Shown here piece after piece: positions 2 through 31,094 of a DNA stretch of 64,000 bases (positions within the stretch are counted from its first letter, which is position 1; each line of letters opens with the position of its first letter). Below the pieces are notes generated by a model. The model made no database searches. It was not told the origin of the DNA and worked only from the letters and a program-made list of their open reading frames with translations. Location: positions 6,200,001-6,264,000 of the forward strand of contig NZ_CP130720.1 of NCBI RefSeq assembly GCF_035984415.1, in the 5' to 3' direction. This DNA comes from Streptomyces sp. NBC_01296. GTDB taxonomy: Bacteria; Actinomycetota; Actinomycetes; Streptomycetales; Streptomycetaceae. The translations under genes and the position numbers were made by a program.

Positions 2-1906
2 GGCGCCACCGTCGACGGCAAGCACGTCGACGCCGGCGGCGAGATCGCCAGGAAGCTCCACGACAGCAAGACCTTCGACTGGCGCGAGGTCAGCGCCGAA
101 GAGGCGGCCAAGGGAGTGGAGAAGGGGACGTACTACCTCTCCCTCACCATGCCCGCCGACTTCAGCACGAAGATCGCCTCCAGTGCCGGTGACGACCCCG
201 CCACCAGCGCCCTGCAGGTCCGTACGAACGACGCGAACAACTACATCGTCGGGTCGATCTCGCGCACCGTCTTCTCCGAGGTCCGCTCCGCAGCCTCAAC
301 CAACGCCTCCCGCGGCTTCCTCGACAAGATCTTCGTCTCCTTCTCCGACCTCCACGACAAGACCGCCGAGGCCGCCGACGGCGCCGACAAGCTCAAGGAC
401 GGCGCGAGCAAGGCCCAGGAGGGCGCGAAGGAGATCGCCGACGGCCTCGACACGGTCGAGGAGAAGAACGGCGAGCTGACCGGCGGACTGAAGAAGCTCA
501 ACTCGGCCTCGGGCAAGCTGGCCACCGGTTCGAAGGACATCGCCGCCGGCACCCAGCAGATCGCGGACAAGGTCAACGGCACCGCCTCCCAGGTCCGTCC
601 CTACCTGGACAACCCCAAGCAGCTCGCCGACACGGCGCTGCTCGTCGCGGACACCGCCCGGGTCGTCAACAACCACCTCGACACCTTCGCCAAGAAGGCC
701 CCCGCCGCGGCCAAGGTCAGCAAGCAGGCCGCGGCCCTGGCCGCCGACACGTACACCCGCACCTGCACGGGCGCCGCGGCCAAGCCGCTGCCGGCAGTCT
801 GCGCCGACATGAAGAAGCTGAAGGACGCCACCGCCGAGGCCGCCCAGCTCACCGGTGACGTAGACACCCTGGTCAAGGACTCCGACGCCGACCTGAGCGC
901 GTTGCGGGGGCAGCTCACCGACCTGGAGAAGCAGGCCCGCAAGCTCGCCGCGGGCGCCCCCGGCCTCGCCGGCAGGCTCGACCAGGCCGTCGCCGACGCC
1001 AACGCCCTCAACACCGGCGCCCAGAAGGTCGCCACCGGCATGGCCCAGCTCCACACCGGCCTGGGCAAGGCCACCGACGGCTCCGAGGCCATCGGTGCGG
1101 GAGTCGGCAAGATCGGCGACGGGGCACACAGCCTCGACGGCGGCATCTACAAGCTCGTCGACGGCAACGGAGCCCTGGCCGGCGGCCTGCACGAGGGCGT
1201 CGACAAGATCCCGGACTACGACCAGCAGCAGCGCGACGCCCGCACCCAGGTCATGGCCGACCCGGTGAAGCTCGCCAACCAGTCCCTGCACAAGGCGCCC
1301 AACTACGGCACCGGCTTCGCGCCGTACTTCATCCCGCTCTCCCTCTGGGTCGGCGCGATGGTCGCCTACATGCTCATCGCACCGCTGAACCGGCGCGCCC
1401 TGGCCGCCGGCGCCTCGCCCTGGCGGATCGCCTTCGCCGGCTGGCTGCCCGTGGTGGGCATAGGGGTCCTGCAGGTGCTCGCGCTGATGTCCGTACTCCA
1501 CTGGGCCCTCGGCCTGGAGATGGCCCGCCCCGCGCTCGCCATCGGCTTCCTCGCGCTGGCCACCGCCTGCTTCGCGGCGATGGTCCAGTGGCTCAACGCG
1601 AAGTTCGGGGCGGCCGGGCGGATCCTGGTTCTCGTCGTGCTGATGCTGCAGCTGACCTCGGCGGGCGGTACGTACCCCGTGGAGACCAGTCCCGCCTTCT
1701 TCAACTGGATCCACCCGTACCTGCCGATGACGTACATCGTCGAGGGGCTGCGCCGCCTCATCTCCGGCGGCGACCTCACCCGGGTCTGGGTGGGCTGCGC
1801 GGTCCTGGTGGCCTTCACGGCGGGCTCCCTGCTCCTCACCTCGCTCGCCGCCCGCGGCAAGCAGGTGTGGACGATGGACCGGCTGCACCCGGAACTGAGC
1901 CTGTAG
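2..1906 (+). CDS. YhgE/Pip family membrane protein (5' truncated)
   Basis: The reading frame is open from base 2, so the N-terminus lies outside the window; 634 residues are visible. The first two thirds form a long Ala/Gly/Asp/Lys-rich coiled region with heptad-like blocks such as DGADKLKDGASKAQEGAKEI, typical of the large extracytoplasmic domain of YhgE/Pip proteins. The last 200 residues hold about five membrane segments and the family-like stretch GGTYPVETSPAFF...LPMTYIVEGLR, which resembles ABC-2 permeases. Homologues include phage-infection proteins and ESX/type VII-associated membrane proteins; the substrate is unknown. A TetR gene follows within 30 bp and is probably its own regulator. 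Family confidence is good, function is not known. Confidence 0.88.
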   Translation, partial: GATVDGKHVDAGGEIARKLHDSKTFDWREVSAEEAAKGVEKGTYYLSLTMPADFSTKIASSAGDDPATSALQVRTNDANNYIVGSISRTVFSEVRSAASTNASRGFLDKIFVSFSDLHDKTAEAADGADKLKDGASKAQEGAKEIADGLDTVEEKNGELTGGLKKLNSASGKLATGSKDIAAGTQQIADKVNGTASQVRPYLDNPKQLADTALLVADTARVVNNHLDTFAKKAPAAAKVSKQAAALAADTYTRTCTGAAAKPLPAVCADMKKLKDATAEAAQLTGDVDTLVKDSDADLSALRGQLTDLEKQARKLAAGAPGLAGRLDQAVADANALNTGAQKVATGMAQLHTGLGKATDGSEAIGAGVGKIGDGAHSLDGGIYKLVDGNGALAGGLHEGVDKIPDYDQQQRDARTQVMADPVKLANQSLHKAPNYGTGFAPYFIPLSLWVGAMVAYMLIAPLNRRALAAGASPWRIAFAGWLPVVGIGVLQVLALMSVLHWALGLEMARPALAIGFLALATACFAAMVQWLNAKFGAAGRILVLVVLMLQLTSAGGTYPVETSPAFFNWIHPYLPMTYIVEGLRRLISGGDLTRVWVGCAVLVAFTAGSLLLTSLAARGKQVWTMDRLHPELSL

Positions 1907-27341: not shown

Positions 27342-30488
<3,147 letters not shown>

Positions 30489-30500
30489 GAGGCTGAACTC

Positions 30501-30750
30501 TTCCTCCGGCGGGATGTCACTTCCGTCCGGAGGGACGAGAGCCACTCCTGAGAATCCAGGACGCCTGCTCCCGCGGTACCACCCTCCTTGGCCGCCGGAC
30601 GGATCCGGTGGCCCCCTCATTGGGGTGCGAAGCCGGTTCTACTGGCCCCACGGGAATCCGTGCGGGCTTTCTTCCGGCGGCTCAGGGGTGATCCTTCACA
30701 TCGCGCTCGCCCCCGGGCTCTCACCGTCCCCGGGTCGCTCCTGGCTGCGT
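30501..30750 (-). promoter_or_regulatory. T-box riboswitch of ileS (translational type)
   Basis: Reading the minus strand, the T-box core AGGGTGGTACCGCGG is at 30585-30571. An antisequestrator can be drawn exactly: GGAGGG (30587-30582) with CCCTCC (30534-30529), a TGGTACC bulge (30581-30575), and GCGGGAG (30574-30568) with CTCTCGT (30541-30535). The alternative helix pairs CCTCCGG (30533-30527) with CCGGAGG (30509-30503), which is the ileS ribosome binding site. So an uncharged tRNA(Ile) bound to TGGT would free the site. The specifier is probably ATC (30692-30690) in the usual context GAAGG-ATC-ACCCCTGAG. AGTAG (about 30622-30618) resembles the stem III conserved word. I see no terminator T-run. 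Confidence 0.93.
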
Positions 30751-31094
30751 ACGAAGCTACTCGTCCCCGTCCATGCCTTTCGCTGGGCCCAGTGTACGGG
30801 GCGGGGGCCCGCTCGGCAGACCGGTTTACGGGGGGTCGGCGCGGGGGTTGCGTCGGGCCTCGCAGCGGGGTGCGGGGCGGCGGCCGGGCGGGTGCGCGGC
30901 ATGACCCGAACGGGCTGATGGGCCGGTCCGGGCTCCGGTGTGACGGGTGGGGCGGATTACCGGGCTCCCTGATGGGCACAACGGATGCAGGTTGGCATCG
31001 ATGGACGCGTGCCCCGTTGCCGCGAGGCCGGAGTCGATTTATCGTTCCGGCACGATTCGCGCGCAAGATCACAGTATGTGAAGGGGCCGCGGCC
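30751..31094. promoter_or_regulatory. ileS / dksA-like divergent promoter region
   Basis: On the minus strand TACACT at 30796-30791 is a good -10 candidate for the T-box transcript, though no clear -35 stands at the right distance. The rest, up to the ATG at 31095, holds no convincing gene. AGTATG at 31071-31076 and GAAGGGG just before the start may serve the dksA-like gene. Confidence 0.4.

Follow-up and report, generated by a model that had tools for sequence, protein, structure and literature searches.

The window analysed here, a 64,000-nt stretch of contig NZ_CP130720.1 of Streptomyces sp. NBC_01296, carries on its minus strand the isoleucyl-tRNA synthetase gene ileS (27342..30488), whose product scores 902.7 bits against TIGR00392 (cut-off 621) and whose start codon, AUG, is located at 30488-30486. 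All of the leader features described below are on the same strand. The closest ileS proteins, at 92-97% identity, are found in S. virginiae, S. katrae, S. lavendulae and their near relatives. Among IleRS chains, the protein is best matched by Thermus 1ile and by a group whose members are 1032 aa long, and the MupA model gives it 766 bits; its sequence suggests that the IleRS encoded at 27342-30488 is of the eukaryote-like, mupirocin-tolerant type.

The T-box leader upstream of ileS

As judged by covariance-model matching, the approximately 300 nt upstream of ileS are a T-box leader. The T-box model RF00230 matches the minus strand from 30782 to 30554 over its full length (model positions 1-219) with 50 bits, corresponding to an E-value of 4.5e-10 over the 501 nt searched and 2.1e-9 genome-wide, and a covariance search of the whole genome returned this leader as its sole T-box match. 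The initial annotation had placed an ileS T-box within 30501-30750 and had suggested such a search as a check. Both the identity of the element and that of its gene are upheld; the span given, however, leaves out 27 nt at the 5′ end of Stem I, on its 5′ strand.

The score of 50 is below the RF00230 gathering score of 93, and a default Rfam search therefore misses the element: at the gathering threshold no match was found in the window, and the T-box is seen only with an E-value threshold. T-box matches are present in all 61 sampled Streptomyces and in all 99 sampled genomes of the order, yet none of them reaches the curated cut-off, a shortfall that the group as a whole shares. At the class level 101 of 198 genomes have a match, the filters losing weak ones, and all three counts are of T-boxes in general, with some matches not being ileS leaders. 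The same discriminator was found upstream of ileS in each of the 80 named Streptomyces relatives retrieved by their ileS protein. The fold of the leader has a z-score of -2.94. Weak Rfam matches close to the leader (sR60, 5S and H19) were below threshold and were ignored.

A likely -10 promoter element, TACACT (30791..30796), is conserved in the aligned leaders (TACAAT in three relatives), and the leader is expected to start near 30784; a promoter scan found no sigma-70 consensus pair at the leader. Further upstream, a few tens of bases from TACACT and at about 30830-30815, most Streptomyces conserve the block AAACCGGTC.

In the RF00230 alignment, Stem I (30777-30679) is of the long form, with a K-turn-like base, the S-turn AGUA and helices that covary; its distal helix is 100% paired with three compensated pairs. 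The aligned leaders place an AG bulge, AGGAGCGA, at 30742-30735 and a distal loop, GGUGAGA, at 30725-30719, whereas T-boxes of the short and ultrashort Stem I subgroup have neither. The specifier codon AUC (Ile; 30690..30692) is followed by an A and stands in a loop of the pattern GAA-n-AUC-A; it is invariant in 44 aligned ileS leaders, while the bases just 5′ of it vary. AUC is complementary to the anticodon GAU of the tRNA-Ile found in this genome (L205, located by a whole-gene DNA query), and the discriminator of this tRNA, A, is complementary to the U of UGGU in the T-box bulge.

Stem II (30632..30678) contains the S-turn motif GAAGAAA / AGUAGAA and shows compensatory changes, with 100% pairing in its outer helix and 92% in its inner helix. 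It is followed by CCCC-AAUGA-GGGG (30613..30625), which is conserved in relatives and is probably the Stem IIA part of a Stem IIA/B element, and by Stem III (30590..30613), where both partners have changed in 8 of the 9 pairs. In the aligned leaders AAGGAGGGUGGUACCGCG stands 3′ of Stem III, completing the full T-box anatomy. In 26 sequences, standard pairs account for 94.1% of the pair cells in Stems I, II and III and in helices A1 and A2 (see below), and 22 pairs have changes on both sides. The leader helices contain 88 both-side cells compared to 25.6 in shuffled alignments, a value reached in none of 500 shuffles, which ignore relatedness.

Two pairings of one CCCUCC strand

The initial annotation had written out two alternative structures base by base, and all of the strings that it quoted were located on the minus strand. 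In the first, the antisequestrator, the 5′ strand of helix A1, GGAGGG (30582..30587), pairs with CCCUCC (30534-30529), and the 5′ strand of helix A2, GCGGGAGC (30567..30574), pairs with GCUCUCGU (30535..30542), both strands of A2 showing covariation. Helix A2 is topped by a variable insert (30543..30566) that differs in length among relatives and holds a decoy, CGUCCU. The T-box bulge UGGUACC (30575..30581), invariant in the A1 alignment, is flanked by A1 and A2 and is complementary to the acceptor end of tRNA-Ile(GAU), its UGGU standing opposite the 3′ ACCA of the tRNA and the discriminator being A. The two helices around the bulge are 98.1% paired in the alignment. Both-side changes occur in 4 of the 8 A2 pairs; A1 is almost invariant, and its support thus comes from conservation and not from covariation. 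This evidence supports the antisequestrator as it was drawn.

In the second structure, the sequestrator, CCUCCGG (30533-30527) pairs with CCGGAGG (30509-30503), which contains the Shine-Dalgarno (SD) sequence GGAGG (30507-30503). We found that this helix runs three pairs further than had been annotated, with CGG 30525-30523 pairing with CCG 30512-30510 past a bulged A30526, so that the full arms are CCUCCGG-A-CGG (30523..30533) and CCG-CCGGAGG (30503..30512). The last five bases of the A1 3′ strand, CCUCC (30533-30529), are common to both structures.

Within the Streptomycetales the sequestrator is 95.4% paired, with two compensated positions. The class-wide comparison comprised 38 distinct arm pairs, for which CGUCCC and the SD served as anchors without regard to pairing; seven leaders that could not be anchored were left out, and the SD anchor is off by some bases in a few leaders, which weakens rather than creates covariation. 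Changes on both sides are found at 5 of 9 positions, one of which has six pair types, and they recur in different families. In total there are 33 both-side cells against 12.8 in shuffled arms (0 of 1000 shuffles, which ignore relatedness). Examples of compensated arms are CCUUCACGC/GCGUGGAGG, CCUCCAAGA/UCUUGGAGG, CCUCCGUGG/CCACGGAGG and CCUCCGACG/CGUUGGAGG. Covariation thus bears out the annotated sequestrator, including its hold on the SD, and extends it.

An arm-swap energy test was taken as support only. Own arms pair at -14.8 kcal/mol vs. -11.7 kcal/mol for foreign arms, and for 31% of the foreign 3′ arms the pairing is as good as with the own arm; the separation is modest because CCUCC and GGAGG are common to all. 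Start codons were misassigned in L016, L070, L092, L100, L121 and L124, resulting in short false partners in this test.

The spacer between the SD and the AUG (30502-30489) is 14 nt long, and in the S. virginiae/lavendulae clade it has the nearly fixed sequence AAGAGUUCAGCCUC. Most other Streptomyces have a spacer of 6-9 nt; the length of 14 nt is long by comparison and was counted against a translational reading. In addition, the CCUC that directly precedes the AUG offers GAGG of the SD a weak pairing partner.

Switching model and alternative readings

In these predicted structures CCCUCC (30534-30529) has two mutually exclusive pairings. Both predicted states contain helix A2, and the switch is therefore A1 against the sequestrator; of the two alternative structures as annotated, the exclusion between A1 and the sequestrator holds, while A2 fits both states. 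The whole unbound leader is predicted to fold into the sequestrator form. For the 3′ domain without tRNA, the predicted energies are -48.6 kcal/mol for the OFF state and -42.1 kcal/mol for the ON state, favouring OFF by about 6.5 kcal/mol.

Because CCUCC is common to both states, OFF is preferred without tRNA and a terminator is absent, we infer that the leader follows the established T-box scheme. Uncharged tRNA-Ile would pair through its anticodon GAU with AUC and through its 3′ ACCA with UGGU. Binding would stabilize A1 (GGAGGG/CCCUCC) atop the standing helix A2, and the formation of A1 would withdraw CCCUCC from the SD and allow ileS to be translated. With the tRNA charged or absent, CCUCCGG would pair with CCGGAGG, the SD would be hidden and the translation of ileS would be lowered. 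In our assessment the leader very probably controls ileS as a translational T-box riboswitch that responds to tRNA-Ile. A build-up of uncharged tRNA-Ile would then most likely lead such a switch to open the ribosome binding site; that the tRNA binds and that access to the SD changes are both expected from the behaviour of the T-box family.

Transcription is the target of most known T-boxes (PMC7583486), and hiding of an SD can expose an RNA to Rho. The switch between A1 and the sequestrator could accordingly govern Rho-dependent or weak intrinsic termination, with SD occlusion as a secondary effect. We consider this improbable. There are no terminator-like sites in 30300-30950, in agreement with the initial annotation, which had seen no terminator in the leader. 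Moreover, in most of the relatives examined, from many actinomycete families, the alternative helix has a 3′ arm that overlaps the SD, with compensatory changes; this overlap counts against control of transcription since a terminator would not require it.

The low RF00230 score, being below threshold, would also be expected of a T-box that has decayed and lost its response to tRNA, in which the SD hairpin serves as a constitutive attenuator of ileS translation. However, the aligned relatives retain the T-box bulge, which is invariant, as well as Stem III, the specifier, the S-turn, the AG bulge and the distal loop, and they show compensatory changes, which makes decay very unlikely. Least credible of all is an antisequestrator formed with the nearer CGUCCU (30564-30559) in place of the distal CGUCCCUCC, which would make the annotated switch wrong: the Rfam covariance model does align this pairing, and AGG/CCU and GCG/CGU can be written for it, but CGUCCU sits in the variable insert that most relatives lack, and 42% of cells show the pairing, which does not exceed the level in shuffles, compared to 98% for the distal pairing.

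Known translational T-boxes and related actinomycete leaders

The translational T-box that we favour for ileS belongs to a class that is already known, as the initial annotation had said. Seliverstov et al. 2005 (PMC1262725) predicted SD-sequestering ileS T-boxes in several Actinobacteria; their study took in the S. coelicolor and S. avermitilis genomes and may already contain a drawing of the Streptomyces element. Biochemical proof of translational ileS T-boxes came from Sherwood, Grundy and Henkin in 2015, according to the review PMC7583486, which also cites ileS T-box structures from Nocardia farcinica and Mycobacterium tuberculosis. A small number of translational T-boxes retain a long Stem I (PMC7583486); the ileS leader is therefore a recognised variant, and it fits the known translational class as its long-Stem-I form. 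Inserts such as the one atop A2 are often carried by that helix in translational T-boxes (PMC7583486).

With the actinobacterial translational ileS T-boxes the leader shares the gene, the Ile specifier, A1 and A2 around UGGUACC, the SD-sequestering hairpin and the lack of a terminator. Most translational T-boxes, in contrast, have an intermediate or ultrashort Stem I and no tRNA-elbow-binding motif, whereas the long Stem I of this leader includes both an AG bulge and a distal loop. The long Stem I, the Stem II with S-turn, Stem III and the T-box bulge are those of the canonical transcriptional T-boxes of Firmicutes (RF00230), from which the ileS leader differs in having no terminator, an alternative helix that hides the SD and a variable insert atop A2. 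As in SD-sequestering metabolite riboswitches, an anti-SD strand hides the ribosome binding site in the OFF state, but the ligand is a tRNA, read by codon-anticodon and acceptor-end pairing.

The same searches yielded about 20 other T-box leaders, of a second type, around the motif GGUGG[UC]ACC (L002-L007, L031-L033, L035-L039, L046, L077, L101, L114, L118 and L122). These Asp-type leaders are found in Streptomyces and a further family of its order as well as in other actinomycetes. Eighteen of the 19 Asp-type leaders examined have the specifier GAC, and the bulge is UGGC or UGGU. Their A1 helix is paired at 7 of 7 positions and covaries (AGUGCGG/CCGCACU, GGCGUGG/CCACGCU, GGUGUGG/CCACACC). In many of them the SD lies inside a helix, CCCAAGGG/CCCUUGG, and the Asp-type leaders therefore look translational. 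The genes 3′ of L002, L003, L036 and L077 encode AspRS of the aspartate--tRNA(Asn) ligase type; the remaining downstream genes were assigned by similar coding starts, and Asp-type leaders are judged from these sequences to precede second AspRS genes. tRNA-Asp is expected to have the discriminator G. Eight Asp-type leaders (L031-L033, L036-L039 and L046) have UGGU in place of UGGC, which would need a U-G pair. A further leader, L040 (about 1500-1750, minus strand), has the specifier UCC (Ser) and a UGGC bulge and precedes a seryl-tRNA synthetase gene (TIGR00414, over cut-off). We found no report of Asp or Ser leaders in the literature searched, from which most subscription papers were missing.

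On balance we lean towards long-Stem-I translational T-boxes being the rule in the order to which Streptomyces belongs, Streptomyces itself included, and towards their also occurring in actinomycetes, with an SD-hiding helix, before second AspRS genes (GAC) and at least one second SerRS gene (UCC). If true, the Asp and Ser leaders extend the translational T-boxes of actinomycetes beyond isoleucine. The ileS leader itself is an example of a translational T-box that keeps the tRNA-elbow-binding Stem I, and its switching unit is small: a single strand, CCCUCC, would pair with either A1 or the SD, each of them a GGAGG-like partner. For Streptomyces, which are major antibiotic producers, this provides a base-by-base and comparatively supported model of how the translation of IleRS may be adjusted to the charging of its tRNA.
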